This document shows, piece by piece, positions 1 to 25,337 of a stretch of 39,035 bases of DNA (position 1 is the first letter of the stretch; each line of letters opens with the position of its first letter). Location of the stretch: the NCBI RefSeq assembly GCF_001436215.1, contig NZ_AYYP01000063.1, forward strand, positions 8,170 through 47,204, read 5' to 3'. The notes beneath the pieces are model-generated. The model searched no databases, was not told the DNA's origin, and was given only the letters and a program-made list of their open reading frames with translations. The translations under genes and the position numbers were made by a program. This DNA is from Ligilactobacillus agilis DSM 20509 (GTDB lineage: Bacteria; Bacillota; Bacilli; Lactobacillales; Lactobacillaceae).

Positions 1-21
1 CCAACACCAGTATTCCCATAT

Positions 22-39
22 CCCAACTTGGGGATAATG
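22..39 (-). repeat. Hairpin in the right end of the decayed tnpB element
   Basis: A short palindrome (TATCCC, loop, GGGATA) lies downstream of the tnpB stop. It resembles the subterminal hairpins of IS200/IS605-type right ends. Together with the structured bases at 60-90 it probably marks the remains of the element's end and omega-RNA scaffold. The rest of 1-88 holds no gene. Confidence 0.4.
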
Positions 40-88
40 ACAGTGACTGACTCTTGTAGCTTAAGGGTGTAGCCCACCCCATTTATTT

Positions 89-19604: not shown

Positions 19605-19681
19605 GATTTTTCAGCGACTCCTTTGTTCAAAAAGCGAATTTTAAATCTTTAACGAAAGTAAACCTTCGTCATTTCTTCCTA

Positions 19682-19710
19682 AGATTATCAATTTTAAAGC
19701 CCGCCGTCAA
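19682..19710 (-). promoter_or_regulatory. Promoter of the purC operon
   Basis: Minus-strand TTGACG (19710-19705), 17-bp spacer, TAATCT (19687-19682). It leaves a leader of about 70 nt with no riboswitch-like structure that I can see. Confidence 0.82.
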
Positions 19711-19715
19711 GAACA

Positions 19716-19728
19716 AAACACGAATATT
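19716..19728. promoter_or_regulatory. PurBox-like PurR operator at purC
   Basis: Plus-strand AAACACGAATATT agrees with the PurBox AWWWCCGAACWWT at 10 of 13 positions and lies 5 bp upstream of the -35 box. The AAACACGAA core recurs, inverted, upstream of purE. In Gram-positive bacteria PurR with PRPP uses such sites; activator or repressor action cannot be told here. Confidence 0.5.
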
Positions 19729-19806
19729 GAAAACTTTTTTGTGGTTTTCAAACGCTTTTAACTAAAAAATAATAATTTTACACAATCCAAACCGCTATAT
19801 CAACCT

Positions 19807-19844
19807 ATAAAAAAGGAACAATCGCCAAAAACGATTGTTCCTTT
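19807..19844 (-). terminator. Terminator after the PLD-NTPase gene
   Basis: Perfect 13-bp stem (AAAGGAACAATCG with CGATTGTTCCTTT) around a 7-nt loop, with a T-run on the minus strand. It closes the ktrB-ktrA-PLD transcription unit, 5 nt after the stop codon. Confidence 0.88.
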
Positions 19845-19849
19845 ATGCT

Positions 19850-22180
19850 TTATTTGATAAACTTATCTACTAACCTAAACCATGGATTTTTCTGCCGCCG
19901 TTCTAGCTTTTCTTTTTGTTTCTGTTCAGCCTGATACTTAACGGTGTACATGGCTTGAAATTCCGATTGACGCTCAATTTTTTCTAGCTCTTCCCGGCGC
20001 TTTTTAACCCCCGTTTCTTCATCATGATGTTCCCTAAGCAAATTAACCCCCAGCCACTTATCCATGTTATCGATGTTGACGGTTAACCCAACAGATACAT
20101 AGCTAGCACAAATTTCTAATTTGGGCGGTAAGTAATCAAAGAACCGCTTAATGTCGTTCCGATTTGGAAATACCCCCACCGGAATTAAACACTGGTCGTC
20201 ACCTGCAGTCACTGAGATTTGCTCAATAACTTGCTTGTCGCTCAATAAGGTCCGCCAATTGCGGCGTCCTTTATCGAAATTAATATCGTAATTATCTTCA
20301 CCAAAATAAGTTTCTAAATCACTAACATCCAATTCATAATCTTCAGTTAACCTACGCAAATTAGCCTTAACTGGAGAAAGAAAGTCCTTCGTCAACATTT
20401 GATAATCTTCTAAGCTTAAATTATCTAATTGCCGGTCAATCGCTTGGCTAAGGTATAGAAAAACATTATTATTAACCATCCGCCCTTGGCGACTTTTAAT
20501 TCCTTCTAAAAAATCTAAAAACTCTTCGTCTTGTACCGTAAATTCTTTAAACTGGTTTTCCTGTCCAATCGCATAGGCTCGCTTACCAACCTGACTTGAA
20601 ATTGAAACCTTACCACCATCTTTGTCATTCAGTCCAAATAAAACAACCGGGTGTACACTGCCATGATAACGGTTAGCTAGGTACTTTAAAGTTGCCTCAG
20701 CACTAGCACCAAACAAGGAAATATCGGGGTCATCAATGCACATCGGGGTGACTGAACTTTTAGTTTCCATATATTCCTGAGTAAAAGACCAAACGTTTCT
20801 ATTAATATCCTTTTTACTTTCCATTAAGGGGTTAGTCTTGCCTAGCTCTTCCGGAGATTTACCCGCAGCTAGGGCATCTTTGACCTTCTTTTTGATTCGA
20901 AACATCGCATCCGTTCCATCAACAATATTATTGGTATTTCCAATAGTCAGATTTGAGGCAATCTTTAACAGGGTGGTCTTGCCAGTATTTCCCTGGCCAA
21001 TTAAGCCAGCTACCACTGGAATTTGATCGACATTTCCTTTATGCTCGCTAATGATTTTACGGATTTTCCAGATATTAGCTGATTGTAAGACGTACATCAA
21101 AAAAGAAAAGGCAGCTTGTGATTCATCACTTTGCTTGCGGTCCCGATAAAAGCGGACGATTTCTAAGATGTCTGTTATTTCTTCTTTAGTTGGTTTCTGG
21201 GCTATGACAGGTTCTTGCAACGACGACCCGAAGCTAGGTGCCTTTAGTAAACTAGTTTGATCTTCATCGTAAACATATAAGGGTTTAGGATAAAATTCGT
21301 GGGCTTGTCTATTTAGAAAGTCAAAATTCGCCTTACTCTCTTGCTCGTGATAGATTACTTTAAAAATCTGTTTACGCTTAACCTCGTCAGTTAACAGGTT
21401 GAGCTTTTCTTTAACCTTACCACTTTTATTAAAAATCAAGTTAACAACCTGCTCTTTAGCCTTTTGCTCACGCTTAATTGCCGCAACATCAATTACTTGC
21501 CGCGTTTCTTGTTTAATCTTAGTGATATCCTCTGAAGCAAAGGTCGGTTTATTCTTAGCAGCTGCCAGGTTTTCAACCGTTTGGTCAAATAAGTAAATCT
21601 TTTGTTTTTCTGTATTTTCCTGGCCAAAAAAGCCCGTCACAATTTTACGGTTTAAAAACTCAGCTGCAGTTTGATAAATATCTTGGTAAACGGCTTGATA
21701 GATTTCTTGGTAAGCTAAATCCTCGGTTTTACCATGATCACACAATAGAACTTCTTTATTACGTTTTAAGGCTTGTTCACTTAGATTCATCGAACCTAAG
21801 TAGGCCCGATAATCATCACCATTAGGGTTAGTCAATATGTAGACTTTTGAGTGAACTAAGGCTTCCTTAGAAAACTTCAATTCTAGACTACCGTCTTCAA
21901 AACGTTGCCTTAATTCCGAGTCTAGACTGGTTAACAATTTAAATTGCTCATTACTAGCATAAAGATAATTTTCTAATGCCGTATTGGCTTTGGTATCACT
22001 CAAACCAATCACTAGCTCTATTTTCTCAAACCTTGGTAACAAATACTTTTTTATAAAAGAAAGGCTGGTGTTATAAACCGCACCGCGAAAGGTCGTTAAC
22101 CCCTTAGCATTTTGGTCAATATCTCTAAAAAAATCCGTCCCTAAATCTTGAATGACAGTTCTATCTTTGATTACTACCAT
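19850..22180 (-). CDS. PLD-nuclease / P-loop NTPase fusion, uncharacterised
   Basis: 776 residues, no signal peptide or membrane segment. The N-terminal domain (about 1-180) is phospholipase-D-like with one HKD half-site: H110-S-K112 and GSMN at 129-132, the pattern of helicase-associated PLD nucleases, which dimerise to complete the site. A charged linker (about 185-330) follows. The second domain has a Walker A GQGNTGKT (395-402), a Walker-B-like MCIDD (480-484), a sensor-1-type Asn in VVLFGLND (518) and a candidate arginine finger in GKRAYAIG (534); this order suggests an AAA+ or SF3-helicase-like ATPase. The tail (about 720-765) is a basic coiled coil. The ATG directly follows the ktrA TAA, with GGGGGA as ribosome site, so it is translationally coupled to ktrA. 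It may process or sense nucleic acid, possibly as defence; this is inference only. Confidence 0.7.
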   Translation of the reverse strand: MVVIKDRTVIQDLGTDFFRDIDQNAKGLTTFRGAVYNTSLSFIKKYLLPRFEKIELVIGLSDTKANTALENYLYASNEQFKLLTSLDSELRQRFEDGSLELKFSKEALVHSKVYILTNPNGDDYRAYLGSMNLSEQALKRNKEVLLCDHGKTEDLAYQEIYQAVYQDIYQTAAEFLNRKIVTGFFGQENTEKQKIYLFDQTVENLAAAKNKPTFASEDITKIKQETRQVIDVAAIKREQKAKEQVVNLIFNKSGKVKEKLNLLTDEVKRKQIFKVIYHEQESKANFDFLNRQAHEFYPKPLYVYDEDQTSLLKAPSFGSSLQEPVIAQKPTKEEITDILEIVRFYRDRKQSDESQAAFSFLMYVLQSANIWKIRKIISEHKGNVDQIPVVAGLIGQGNTGKTTLLKIASNLTIGNTNNIVDGTDAMFRIKKKVKDALAAGKSPEELGKTNPLMESKKDINRNVWSFTQEYMETKSSVTPMCIDDPDISLFGASAEATLKYLANRYHGSVHPVVLFGLNDKDGGKVSISSQVGKRAYAIGQENQFKEFTVQDEEFLDFLEGIKSRQGRMVNNNVFLYLSQAIDRQLDNLSLEDYQMLTKDFLSPVKANLRRLTEDYELDVSDLETYFGEDNYDINFDKGRRNWRTLLSDKQVIEQISVTAGDDQCLIPVGVFPNRNDIKRFFDYLPPKLEICASYVSVGLTVNIDNMDKWLGVNLLREHHDEETGVKKRREELEKIERQSEFQAMYTVKYQAEQKQKEKLERRQKNPWFRLVDKFIK

Positions 22181-22831
22181 TTATTTCCCCCGTTCCAATC
22201 CTAAATCCTGCTTATCCGTTACCACTAAAATGGTATCTCCCATGATGAAGGTAGCATCGGGGCCAATATCCGTCAACAATTCTCCATCACGTCGGACGGC
22301 AATAACGTTTAAGCCGTAACGCGAGCGGAGGTTTAAGTCAGCTAAGCGCTGGTTAAGCCATTCTCGTTTGACGTTAATTTCAACAATCGAAATTTTATCC
22401 GACAGTTCAATGTAGTCCAAGAAATTCTTGGCTAATAGGTTACGTGCAGCCCTAACGGCTCCGTCACGTTCTGGAATCACGACGCGGTTAGCGCCAACCT
22501 TTTGAAAAATTGTTCGTTGGGTATCATCCGAAGCCTTGGCAATGACCAAAGGCACCCCGGCATCCTTAGCGGCCATAATCGCCATAATCGAAGCCCCGAG
22601 GTTACCAGACATCGAAACAACCACGCCGTCCATATTATTAAGCCCTAATTTTTCATAGGCCATTTCATTTAAACAATCAATTGCCACGGCCATCGTAACG
22701 TCATCTGCAATCGCAGTTGTTTGCGCTTCGTTTCTATCAACTGCTAAGACATCGGCGCCTAGTTCCATTAACTCGTGGCAAACACTCCGTCCAAATTCTC
22801 CTAAACCAAAAACCGCATATGATCTATCCAT
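22181..22831 (-). CDS. ktrA: Ktr/Trk potassium uptake regulatory subunit (RCK protein)
   Basis: 216-residue cytosolic gating subunit. The N-terminal Rossmann (RCK/TrkA-N) domain begins YAVFGLGEFGRSVCHELMELG, the GxGxFG nucleotide-binding loop, with an acidic residue after strand 2 (VLAVDRNE). The C-terminal TrkA-C domain (about 135-210) ends in MGDTILVVTDKQDL. In this family ATP/ADP or NAD(H) binding, and often c-di-AMP at the C-domain, gates the pore subunit. It lies 23 nt after ktrB, and its stop codon abuts the start of the PLD-NTPase gene. Confidence 0.93.
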   Translation of the reverse strand: MDRSYAVFGLGEFGRSVCHELMELGADVLAVDRNEAQTTAIADDVTMAVAIDCLNEMAYEKLGLNNMDGVVVSMSGNLGASIMAIMAAKDAGVPLVIAKASDDTQRTIFQKVGANRVVIPERDGAVRAARNLLAKNFLDYIELSDKISIVEINVKREWLNQRLADLNLRSRYGLNVIAVRRDGELLTDIGPDATFIMGDTILVVTDKQDLGLERGK

Positions 22832-22854
22832 CTACTCTATCCTTCTTTCTATCT

Positions 22855-24243
22855 TTAGCCTACCCGAATATTTCCGGCTGCATACTTAATGTCAGCTTGG
22901 TGTTCCCGTTTAGTTAGCGCCAGTAAAATTGAGGCCGGACCAACCCGTCCTAAATACATACAAGCAATGATTAAATATTTAGCAGCGGTCGTCAAATCTG
23001 GGGTTAAGTCGCGACTAATCCCGACCGTTCCCAGAGCACTATAAACTTCAAAAATATTGTCGGTCATATCACCAGGCTGGATGAAATACATTAATAAAAC
23101 CGCCATCACACTAACAATCACACTAATAACGGTAATTGCAATTGCCTTTCTAATTGTTTGGCGTCCAATCCGGCGTCTAAAGCAAATCACATCTTCTTCA
23201 CCCTTAATGATTGCCTTGACTTCTAACATAATTACTGCCAAGGTGGTCGTCTTCACCCCACCGGCGGTCCCCGTTGGCGAGCCCCCAATAAACATCAAAA
23301 AGACGGTCAACATTACTGAAGGAATCGTTAAATCAGCTTGGGAGATTGTTACAAACCCAGCCGTCCTAGTAGTTACTGACTGGAATAAAGCTTCTAACAT
23401 CGCCTGAGCGGTCCCAACTTTACCTAAAGTTGCTGGATTATTGTGCTCGAATAGGTAGTACAAAACAGCCCCACCCAAAATTAAGATAGCAGTCGTTAAT
23501 AAAACTACCTTACTATGTTGAGAGAGAGTTGTTTTTAACCTTTTTCCCCGACCTTTTTTTCGATAACGATATTGGTTTACCAAACCATGGCCTAATTCAT
23601 TCCAAACAGTAAAGCCTAAGCCACCACAAATGATTAAAAACATCGTCACAAAGTTTAACCACCAGTTACCAGCATAGTTTATTAAACTATTAGGGGCTAG
23701 TAGGTCGATGCCAGCGTTACAAAAGGCCGAAATCGAGTGAAAAATAGCATACCAGCTTCCTCTCCCCAAACCAAAATGGGGAACAAAATAACAGGCATAA
23801 GCTAAAGCCCCAATTGCCTCAACTATTAAAGAATCACGAATGACGTGAATGACAAAGCGCACAATACCTTGGTTGTTATCCAAATTAAAGGCATCAGCCA
23901 TCAGCAAGCGATTTTGCAACGAAATTCGCCGCCCGGTTGCAAAAAAGGCTAGTGACATCAAGGTAATCGTCCCTAGACCACCTAGCTGAATTAACAATAA
24001 AATCACTAAATGTCCCAGTTCTGACCAATGACTTGCAGTCGTGACCGTCACCAAGCCCGTCACACAAACACTGGTTGTGGCCGTAAACATCGCGTCAACA
24101 AAAGGGGTCGCCTTGCCAGTCACACTCATCATGGGAAGCATCAATAAGCCGGTTCCGATTAAGATTGCTACTAAAAAGCTAAGCGTGATGACCTGTACCC
24201 GCGAAAAAATATGCTTTTGTTTCGTTTTTCTTCTTGAATACAT
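22855..24243 (-). CDS. ktrB: Ktr potassium transporter membrane subunit
   Basis: 462-residue K+-translocating protein of the Trk/Ktr/HKT superfamily. The four membrane-pore-membrane repeats show their filter segments: TTSVCVTGLV, HSISAFCNAGI, QSVTTRTAGF and YSALGTVGIS, each with the key glycine. It starts with a short basic cytoplasmic tail (MYSRRKTKQKH). It is the first gene of ktrB-ktrA-PLD. An extended -10 promoter lies about 40 bp upstream, and the start is preceded by an AGGAAGATAG-type ribosome site. Confidence 0.93.
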   Translation of the reverse strand: MYSRRKTKQKHIFSRVQVITLSFLVAILIGTGLLMLPMMSVTGKATPFVDAMFTATTSVCVTGLVTVTTASHWSELGHLVILLLIQLGGLGTITLMSLAFFATGRRISLQNRLLMADAFNLDNNQGIVRFVIHVIRDSLIVEAIGALAYACYFVPHFGLGRGSWYAIFHSISAFCNAGIDLLAPNSLINYAGNWWLNFVTMFLIICGGLGFTVWNELGHGLVNQYRYRKKGRGKRLKTTLSQHSKVVLLTTAILILGGAVLYYLFEHNNPATLGKVGTAQAMLEALFQSVTTRTAGFVTISQADLTIPSVMLTVFLMFIGGSPTGTAGGVKTTTLAVIMLEVKAIIKGEEDVICFRRRIGRQTIRKAIAITVISVIVSVMAVLLMYFIQPGDMTDNIFEVYSALGTVGISRDLTPDLTTAAKYLIIACMYLGRVGPASILLALTKREHQADIKYAAGNIRVG

Positions 24244-24280
24244 GCTATCTTCCTATCTTCAAAATATCTTCAGTATTAAC

Positions 24281-24289
24281 ATTATAACA
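24281..24289 (-). promoter_or_regulatory. Extended -10 of ktrB
   Basis: Minus-strand TGTTATAAT about 40 bp upstream of the ktrB start, without a good -35. The short leader has no recognisable c-di-AMP riboswitch. Confidence 0.5.
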
Positions 24290-24330
24290 AATACCGCCCC
24301 TAAAGTTTGGGTTACGGCTTGCGAATCAAT

Positions 24331-24367
24331 AAAAAAAGCACCTAGCAGCTTTATGCCACTAGGTGCT
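24331..24367 (-). terminator. Terminator of the esterase gene
   Basis: AGCACCTAG pairs with CTAGGTGCT across a 12-nt loop and is followed by seven T's on the minus strand, 7 nt after the stop codon. Confidence 0.85.
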
Positions 24368-24373
24368 GGGTAG

Positions 24374-25255
24374 TTATTCGCGATTATCTGGGTATAAGTG
24401 GATTGTTGCAGGCTCATCTTGAACTAGCCAAACTCTGGCCAATTCAACCCAAGCCGCTAGGTTAGGCTGAATATCACTAGCAAAGACTGCACTGGTCCGG
24501 TCGGCCAAAGCTAAGCCGTGACCACCCGTTGCAAAGAGATGGTATTCACAGGCAACCCCAGCCTCTTGAAGTTTCACCACAAATTTACTCGTTTCAAGTG
24601 GGCTGACCGCTAAATCTTCGTTACCTTGCCAGATGAAAGTCCGGGGCATTTGCGCATTAACCTGGGTCACTAAGTCCAACTGTGCTAAACTTTCTTTTGC
24701 CATCAGCTCGTCGAAGTGCGCCTGTTCTTTAACGTGCACCGCGTTTGCAGACAACATTGGGTAAGATAATAACAAGCCACGAATTTTAAAAGTTATTTTT
24801 AATTGAGCTTCCCGGCGCCACTGCTTATCCAAGTATCGTTCCGCCAAACTCGTTACTAAGTGAGAACCAGCCGAAAAACCAAGTAGATAAACACGACTAG
24901 TATCAATAAACCACTCCGCAGCATGCTGTTCAACTAAATTCAAGCTAGTAACTAAATCTAGTAAGGAATCTTTTACACGATAATCCTCATTAATAATTGC
25001 GGGCTGACTTTCATCCGGTCTTTGCTTGAAGTAAACAGAATAATTAACCAATGCTACGTTAAAGCCTAACCCTAAAAAGCGGGCTACCACTGGCTCACTT
25101 TCCTTGTGTGCTAACGACAGGTAGCCTCCCCCTGGACAAATAACCATTAACGGGCGGTTACGGTGTTTTTTATGGGTAATTTCTTCGTCAAGCAGATATA
25201 GTTTCATCCCAGCTTGCGGGTTGTCCGAACGTAAATTGATTTCGTGATAATACAT
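24374..25255 (-). CDS. Alpha/beta-hydrolase esterase (BD-FAE/acetyl-xylan-esterase-like)
   Basis: 293-residue cytosolic serine hydrolase. The oxyanion-hole motif is CPGGGYLSLAHKESEPV (near residue 45-60), the nucleophile is Ser in LLGFSAGSHLV, the acid is likely Asp in WQGNEDLAVSP and the base is His in TGGHGLAL. These fit the esterase/lipase group that deacetylates sugars or small esters. ATG 25255 follows GGGGG at 7 nt; the open frame further upstream runs into the purB terminator and is not coding. It is alone between two terminators, though readthrough from purB is possible. Substrate unknown. Confidence 0.85.
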   Translation of the reverse strand: MYYHEINLRSDNPQAGMKLYLLDEEITHKKHRNRPLMVICPGGGYLSLAHKESEPVVARFLGLGFNVALVNYSVYFKQRPDESQPAIINEDYRVKDSLLDLVTSLNLVEQHAAEWFIDTSRVYLLGFSAGSHLVTSLAERYLDKQWRREAQLKITFKIRGLLLSYPMLSANAVHVKEQAHFDELMAKESLAQLDLVTQVNAQMPRTFIWQGNEDLAVSPLETSKFVVKLQEAGVACEYHLFATGGHGLALADRTSAVFASDIQPNLAAWVELARVWLVQDEPATIHLYPDNRE

Positions 25256-25296
25256 TAAAAAGCCCCCTTTAGATTTTATTTTCATCATAAAATAAA

Positions 25297-25329
25297 ACAT
25301 ATCGCTTAACAAGCCGTTAAGCGATATGT
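25297..25329 (-). terminator. Terminator of the purEKB operon
   Basis: Perfect 14-bp stem (ACATATCGCTTAAC with GTTAAGCGATATGT), 5-nt loop, then TTTATTTTAT on the minus strand, 8 nt after the purB stop. Confidence 0.9.
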
Positions 25330-25337
25330 GTAAATAG

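Follow-up and report, generated by a model that had tools for sequence, protein, structure and literature searches.

A PLD nuclease-AAA+ ATPase protein family of lactobacilli with a candidate membrane-targeting tail, found as an accessory gene in Ligilactobacillus and a core gene in Limosilactobacillus

We analyzed a 39,035-nucleotide stretch (the window) of the Ligilactobacillus agilis DSM 20509 genome (contig NZ_AYYP01000063.1, positions 8,170 to 47,204), in which a minus-strand open reading frame (ORF) at 19850..22180 encodes, from an ATG start codon, a protein of 776 residues that combines a phospholipase D (PLD) nuclease half-site with an AAA+ NTPase. Judged by its sequences, the family to which this protein belongs is real and has no name; it is scattered among most of the lactobacilli sampled, Limosilactobacillus being the exception. 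Our leading interpretation, put forward at somewhat less than an even chance, is that the family comprises membrane-tethered AAA+ DNA motors, that the form in the window probably degrades incoming DNA, and that the Limosilactobacillus form has been domesticated and is nuclease-dead. A preliminary description of the window had identified the ORF, its motifs and its fused architecture, and had suggested nucleic-acid processing or, purely as a hypothesis, antiphage defense. Two points were absent from it, a C-terminal tail resembling a membrane-targeting sequence and, in Limosilactobacillus, a near-universal clade whose PLD site is mostly degenerate. The features of the gene are as follows.

19850..22180, minus strand: whole gene, PLD-AAA+ protein of 776 residues (ORF list, family alignments)
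21665..22180, minus strand: PLD nuclease half-site domain, residues 1-172 (Pfam RE_NgoFVII; AlphaFold2 (AF2) model compared with SauUSI and the NgoAVII R protein)
21845..21853, minus strand: H110-S-K112, PLD catalytic HxK (recomputed position; conserved in non-core members)
21785..21796, minus strand: GSMN, residues 129-132, PLD motif (recomputed position, family alignments)
21191..21664, minus strand: variable linker, residues 173-330, partly helical and partly of low model confidence (per-residue confidence, identity)
20501..21190, minus strand: AAA+ NTPase core, residues 331-560, boundaries approximate (AF2 model and Foldseek)
20975..20998, minus strand: Walker A GQGNTGKT, residues 395-402 (recomputed position, 93-sequence alignment)
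20729..20743, minus strand: Walker B-like MCIDD, residues 480-484 (recomputed position, 93-sequence alignment)
20627..20629, minus strand: N518, position of a putative sensor Asn (92/93, one row gapped)
20579..20581, minus strand: R534, candidate arginine finger (92/93, one row gapped)
20045..20500, minus strand: residues 561-712, helical bundle and small mixed domain, possibly winged-helix (model secondary structure)
19853..19900, minus strand: residues 761-776, RRQKNPWFRLVDKFIK, C-terminal basic-aromatic tail, candidate membrane-targeting helix (tail statistics; low-confidence model helix at 767-775)

Recomputing the positions confirmed the motifs of the preliminary description (HSK at 110, GSMN at 129, GQGNTGKT at 395 and MCIDD at 480, with FGLND at 515 placing N518 and KRAYAIG at 533 placing R534), and most of their residues are invariant in alignments of 11 and 93 members. 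The larger set consisted of the unique sequences among 109 full-length members (selected by a profile rule) after removal of 16 duplicates; 10 further members were partial and were dropped, among them that of genome G636 (L189), which is consequently absent from the tree described below. One of the 93 rows (L135:18602-19465) has no PLD part. The set divides into 46 sequences from a core Limosilactobacillus clade and 47 non-core sequences. Columns without variation in the 11-member alignment are G59, H110, G129, S130, N132, E143, R374, P388, G400, K401, P479, D483, N518, R534 and D599, while K112 and M131 vary; among the 93 members, G400 and K401 are present in all, and D483, N518 and R534 in 92, with one row gapped. 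This conservation over divergent members rules out that the motifs arose by chance. The acidic residue that closes HxK(x4)D/E is absent from the window protein, whose HSKVYILT has a threonine there, and its PLD site is therefore HxK...GSxN without the D.

The joining of a PLD nuclease domain to an AAA+ NTPase in one chain was borne out by Pfam, by an AF2 model and by Foldseek. Pfam placed RE_NgoFVII on residues 18-174 (6.5e-9, over the gathering score) and PLDc_2 on residues 90-152 (1e-5, slightly under its score); it matched nothing in the NTPase half and reported neither an SRA nor a superfamily 2 (SF2) domain in the protein, and a phmmer search of the protein against the PDB gave no match. 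The family profile had mitochondrial cardiolipin hydrolase as its best PDB sequence match (5.4e-5). The whole-protein model (mean predicted local distance difference test score (pLDDT) 73.4, predicted template modeling score (pTM) 0.56, with pLDDT below 50 at 176-239 and 271-291) matched, at a Foldseek E-value below 0.001, SauUSI, Cch, the NgoAVII R protein, FtsH, parvoviral NS1, a dynein-containing assembly and TRIP13, with SauUSI the best (7clg, 1.7e-6) and the NgoAVII R protein at 1.9e-4 (4rct). The fold, HxK and GSxN of the PLD superfamily were thus all found in the window protein (H110/K112/N132, RE_NgoFVII, 7clg, 4rct). A separate model of residues 325-722 was more confident (mean pLDDT 86.2, pTM 0.85), and its best PDB matches were AAA+ proteins (ORC, SCCmec Cch, FtsH, TRIP13, p97 and others); against viral models, its matches included phage primase/helicase proteins. 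The preliminary description had named the absence of an NTPase fold as grounds for abandoning its proposal; the model supports such a fold.

Consistent with an AAA+ fold, which these models support for the NTPase half, the Walker A and Walker B residues, the putative sensor Asn and the candidate arginine finger are all conserved. The AAA+ fold matches were at low TM. Among the Foldseek matches listed for the 325-722 model, query-normalized TM-scores did not exceed 0.38; scores this low support the AAA+ class and do not fix a finer placement, such as SF3 or Cch-like. The preliminary description had named PLD and SF3/AAA+ hits as support; matches to PLD and AAA+ proteins were obtained, and those to SF3 or primase families came from a few members. 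TIGR01613 (primase_Cterm) matched 3/25 members at best at 0.0018, PHROG 1156 (DNA primase) matched 1/25 at 5.5e-6, and fold matches to primases and parvoviral NS1 were limited to TM 0.2-0.4; the window protein itself had no SF3/primase family match and nothing among the PHROGs at 0.1.

The evidence for a domesticated form comes from Limosilactobacillus, where all 50 genomes match the family at 1e-30. The best copy in 48 of them has the same ending, 47 terminating exactly in ARLFG and G636 carrying two residues more. In another (G639), the gene is split across two contig ends, each ~96% identical to core members. Together, these place the core clade in 49/50 genomes; the exception, G647 (82% complete), has a single match, of the accessory type (L204). 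A quick tree, built on the sequence that follows the PLD domain and carrying a long-branch warning among remote members, groups the 46 unique core sequences in a single clade (Shimodaira-Hasegawa-like approximate likelihood ratio test (SH-aLRT) 100). H110, K112 and N132 are all intact in 1/46 core sequences versus 45/47 of the others, K112 being replaced in 42/46, and G400, K401, D483, N518 and R534 are all intact in 46/46 and 46/47, respectively. An HxR site is expected to be inactive from the chemistry of PLD enzymes. HxK requires three changes on the tree and N132 eight, and the simplest reading of the HxK history would be that the motif was lost once at the root of the core clade, regained once (four sequences with HxK) and lost once outside that clade (L150).

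Mean pairwise identity is 84% in the NTPase and 58% in the PLD part of core sequences, compared with 32% and 34% among the others, whose linker (residues 173-330) is 20% identical. Median ratios of nonsynonymous to synonymous substitution (dN/dS) were ~0 for the NTPase and 0.035 for the PLD part in the core clade, and 0.012 and 0.081 in other pairs, from the few pairs with 0.05<dS<1.2 (32/1,035 core, 22/1,081 other). Decay of the gene was rejected, as dN/dS is far below 1 in both parts, again from few pairs. By these comparisons the core motor is under very strong constraint, and, given the replaced lysine and lower identity, the core PLD domain seems to be retained as a fold and mostly not as an enzyme. 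A gene labeled DNA/RNA non-specific endonuclease, by BLAST transfer of the label from L013, is no more than two ORFs from the core copy in 12 loci (L013, L123, L124, L127-L134 and L138) out of the 13 that do not run into a contig edge on that side, with L135 the exception.

Many members carry, behind a linker of variable length, a basic-aromatic C-terminal tail: KKKGFWARLFG in Limosilactobacillus, KKKGFFGKIFGGK in L. salivarius, KKGFLKRLFNK in Streptococcus and KNLGFFKKIFY in Arcobacter. The Streptococcus tail contains KGFLKRLF, eight residues identical to the membrane-targeting tag of MinD, KGFLKRLFGG (PMC5471200, partial text), and MinD binds the membrane through an amphipathic helix (PMC13246001, partial text). 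The likeness to MinD, a C-terminal K-K-G-[FW]-hydrophobic-x-R-L-F after a linker, is confined to the tail, and the tail of the window protein follows this pattern only loosely. The last 14 residues hold two or more F/W and carry a net charge of +3 or higher in 45/46 core and 37/47 other members versus 19/799 control ORFs. The controls, each 100 codons or longer, came from the neighborhoods of family genes and lie outside the family. A looser pattern gave 46/46, 39/47 and 42/799, and a stricter one 33/46, 20/47 and 10/799. These rules were devised after the tails had been seen. Hydrophobic moment did not separate the tails (means of 0.38 core, 0.49 other and 0.47 control; other versus control, p = 0.40), and the window's own tail stands at the 99.4th percentile of control moments. 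Given the post hoc rules and the unsuccessful hydrophobic-moment test, we call the tail a candidate membrane-targeting helix of the MinD type.

Outside Limosilactobacillus the gene is patchy, as the preliminary description had predicted. An initial search matched 7/60 genomes, the window's own included, at an E-value of 0.001, some by the PLD part only. With the family profile, 57/301 Lactobacillaceae genomes matched at 0.001, many by PLD alone to proteins of ~960 residues, and at least 26/301 at E<1e-100, 14 of them Limosilactobacillus; three candidates were scored per genome, so these counts are lower bounds. Among 299 genomes of the phylum, 20 matched at 0.001 and 9, including the window's, in both the PLD and NTPase parts. 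Within Ligilactobacillus, the gene is in at least 5/26 genomes (G000, G006, G020, G007 and G017, the last missed by profile A5 by itself). One scan gave 14 loci, including Ligilactobacillus ruminis (47% identity), L. salivarius, Streptococcus saliviloxodontae, Lactobacillus taiwanensis and several Limosilactobacillus. Eighteen plasmid records matched, nine from Ligilactobacillus, three each from Arcobacter and Komagataeibacter, and one each from Lactobacillus, Athalassotoga and Limosilactobacillus. A pattern scan of viral contigs with the window protein, sensitive to close relatives only, found no relative, nor did a single-protein scan of genome contigs, which returned 37 stretches. Phage origin was rejected, since tblastn against 50,697 phage records gave no match.

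The window-type copy is accessory: it occurs in at least 5/26 genomes of its genus, at a variable site, and relatives lie on plasmids, some as broken copies. No neighbor is conserved between the window and the loci of 20 relatives, while related Lactobacillus copies share a neighborhood among themselves, as do core copies. Second copies of the GSMN type occur in a number of Limosilactobacillus genomes that also hold a core copy (e.g., L. ingluviei); in five (G638, G641, G651, G652 and G663), 11-16 kb separate the starts of the PLD-intact and core copies (locus pairs L180/L193, L182/L192, L184/L197, L156/L194 and L157/L195). Some genomes (G299, G092, G270 and G285) show fragments only. In the four L. 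salivarius megaplasmids examined, the gene is within ~2 kb of replication initiator genes, and on an Arcobacter plasmid, it adjoins parAB. Of the nine L. salivarius records listed, four (H5, H6, H7 and H13) have IS3 features inside the match, and the gene is shortened in others. Two L. salivarius megaplasmids (L210 and L209) have the gene IS3-split or shortened near replication genes and carry tetracycline or lincosamide resistance genes.

In the window, a trkA-like gene ends immediately before the ATG of the PLD-AAA+ gene, as part of a gene run with the following features.

22181..22831, minus strand: trkA-like gene, directly upstream, its stop codon abutting the PLD-AAA+ ATG
22855..24243, minus strand: trkH-like gene of the same run (TIGR00933, 8.6e-98, slightly under cut-off)
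24337..24367, minus strand: terminator-like hairpin separating the upstream esterase gene from trkH-trkA-PLD/AAA+ (consensus scan)

The hairpin call is weak, as the consensus scan gave 8 such sites versus 5.9 expected. An esterase-like gene, trkH, trkA and the PLD-AAA+ gene together sit between purB and purC of the purine operon; the purC-purB interval is 19605-25337 of the window. The G+C content of the gene is 38.2% versus 43-46% for purB, K, E, L and F, with purC itself at 39.1%. We compared seven other purC regions of the genus (L114-L118, L120 and L121), assigning gene labels by eye from translations. L115 has a purB-purC gap of 396 bp and no such insert, L114 has a ROK-kinase-like gene there, large surface/pilus-like ORFs separate the two genes in L116 and L120 and occur upstream of purC in L121, and in L117 and L118 purB is not near purC. 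With such differing content the site is variable, and the purB-purC boundary looks like a cargo hotspot in the genus. That trkH, trkA and the PLD-AAA+ gene form one system was rejected: a close trkA relative occurs in 2/26 genomes of the genus at 1e-40, the window's own included; the other carrier, L. salivarius (L119, 83% for TrkA), has it on a different contig from its PLD-AAA+ gene; and none of 20 loci of relatives has a trkA relative beside the family gene. An Rfam Transposase-1 RNA match (RF03014) lies at the window edge (1-56, minus strand).

No named system accounts for this architecture, as the preliminary description had also concluded. Pfam, PADLOC and NCBIfam matched the PLD part only, apart from an insignificant PADLOC AriA match over Walker A (residues 390-411, E 4.9); no PADLOC system matched over most of the window protein, and a literature search covering titles and abstract openings, with most subscription journals outside its coverage, found no paper on it. 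The closest known protein, SauUSI, likewise has an N-terminal PLD half-site and an ATPase in one chain and is the best whole-model Foldseek match (7clg). SauUSI is a single-chain PLD nuclease with an SF2 helicase-like ATPase and a target-recognition domain (PMC7913695, partial text), whereas the window protein has a modeled AAA+ part, no SRA domain according to Pfam, and a membrane-type tail of its own; the SF2 ATPase and SRA domain characteristic of the SauUSI-like Type IV class were not found in it. With NgoAVII, CglI and BfiI, it shares the PLD domain (RE_NgoFVII; 4rct). NgoAVII and CglI have a separate SF2 ATPase subunit and an R subunit with a B3 recognition domain (PMC7913695, partial text), neither of which was found for the window protein. 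SCCmec Cch/Cch2 (PMC7581432, partial text) and phage or plasmid primase-helicases resemble its AAA+ core (5dgk was third for the whole model and second for 325-722), but TM-scores are low, identity is 12-13%, and the window protein lacks a primase and has the PLD fusion. PADLOC gave weak matches to ZacB (residues 98-212) and DISARM DrmC (90-146) on the window protein and, across 25 members, to ZacB in 18, DrmC models in up to 7 and Dpd DpdK in 4; the window-protein match falls within or just behind the PLD part, and the neighbors scanned are metabolic. PLD nuclease-ATPase fusions were thus already known from SauUSI, and the new elements are an AAA+ rather than SF2 ATPase, no recognized target-recognition domain, and the tail. 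The part that is surprising to a specialist is the domesticated clade.

In our view the motor performs the work common to the family, probably at the membrane, because it is invariant and occurs with the tail while the nuclease is optional. We infer every mechanistic step of what follows. Two PLD half-sites from neighboring subunits would form one nuclease center, by analogy with BfiI; the AAA+ part would assemble as a ring that moves along or opens DNA, with R534 acting in trans; and the basic tail would anchor this ring to the cytoplasmic side of the membrane, the entry site of phage, conjugative and transforming DNA. In the accessory form of the window, ATP-driven engagement of entering DNA would lead to its cleavage, making a single-gene barrier. 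In Limosilactobacillus, the motor and tail are kept and cleavage has probably been lost, which would point to a nuclease-independent cellular job. Degradation of incoming DNA is our best single guess for the window protein, although a little below even chances, because its PLD site is intact and of restriction type and its distribution is accessory. More doubtful, taken jointly, is a family with two lives, in which a nuclease-armed accessory form attacks DNA crossing the membrane and a core form, arising after a single loss of the nuclease lysine at the clade base, retains a motor with a core job.

Several observations weigh against this interpretation. The core clade shows that the nuclease is dispensable for the family's most strongly conserved role. 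The TM-scores for Cch (0.33/0.27) are low, which makes helicase activity and a DNA substrate putative, and the other AAA+ fold matches are FtsH, TRIP13 and p97, with dynein and FtsH chains also matched by the full-length model. Hydrophobic moment does not set the tails apart, and 10/47 non-core members fail the charge/aromatic rule. No relative was matched in the phage records. A clear excess of defense genes near accessory copies was not found in 29 loci. We compared the 4 nearest with 4 far ORFs in 29/30 loci (116 versus 116; L151 gave no member at threshold). At 1e-20, there were 48 PADLOC families near and 33 far, and among the matches listed (25 rows each) 7 system names near and ~16 far, counted as families and not proteins; with many redundant models of one protein and fewer system names near than far, there is no clear excess, although the count leaves room for one. 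The near neighbors include Fic (3/116) and McrBC (2/116) domains, and those scanned in the window are purine, Trk and other metabolic genes. The preliminary description's expectation of homologs in defense islands was therefore not supported, and its defense hypothesis came through in part: the intact PLD site and accessory distribution favor it, the neighborhoods lend it no clear support, and, with the core clade, a pure defense-nuclease reading does not cover the whole family.

The alternative that deserves most weight, although we consider it unlikely, is that the gene serves the cell and not defense, its product being a membrane-located motor for DNA maintenance or DNA uptake whose nuclease is a losable processing activity. 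It would explain a core clade found in all but one Limosilactobacillus genome, that one being incomplete with only an accessory-type copy found, and the clade's SH-aLRT support, the far greater conservation of its NTPase than of its PLD part, and an NTPase median dN/dS of ~0; the endonuclease-labeled neighbor of most core loci is a lead to DNA uptake or turnover, but synteny inside one genus is vertical and weak evidence. Universal vertical conservation in the genus with a known housekeeping role, which the preliminary description regarded as speaking against its hypothesis, is approached here, though in another genus and with no known role, the window's own genus being patchy. Rarity beyond Limosilactobacillus, with 12 matches at 1e-100 in ~287 Lactobacillaceae genomes including the window's (a count that assumes all 14 matching Limosilactobacillus genomes belong to that genus's sample), argues against a general housekeeping gene.

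The remaining accounts are each far less probable. A plasmid maintenance or replication protein that strayed into chromosomes would fit the replication initiators and parAB beside plasmid copies and the resemblance of the AAA+ part to SCCmec Cch; we regard it as improbable, since L. salivarius megaplasmids with IS3-split or shortened copies evidently do without the gene, the window copy sits in a purine operon, and the core copies' neighborhood has no labeled replication gene (most labels there are missing). Similarly improbable is a PLD domain acting on membrane lipid, as a membrane-bound phospholipase released by an NTPase sensor to harm the infected cell. The tail, the cardiolipin hydrolase match and weak nSTAND_NTPase5 matches in 7/25 members (best 0.0034) would suit it, but Pfam and Foldseek group the PLD part with restriction endonucleases, and the cardiolipin hydrolase family includes nuclease members. 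We give equally low credence to an RNA-directed nuclease-ATPase, to which weak matches of Viral_helicase1 (8/25, best 0.0071) and RNA_helicase (2/25, best 0.026) point; such matches can be obtained from the Walker motif alone, as ABC_tran also matched 8/25, and the nearest PLD relatives cut DNA.

If the accessory form does block DNA at the membrane, gut and probiotic lactobacilli would possess a one-gene barrier to phages, plasmids and transformation that has no name in the defense library searched. The Limosilactobacillus gene, genus-wide, with invariant motor residues and a mostly replaced nuclease lysine, allows a direct test, and if the two-lives reading is true, the family would be a bacterial case of an immunity-type ATPase turned core cell component.

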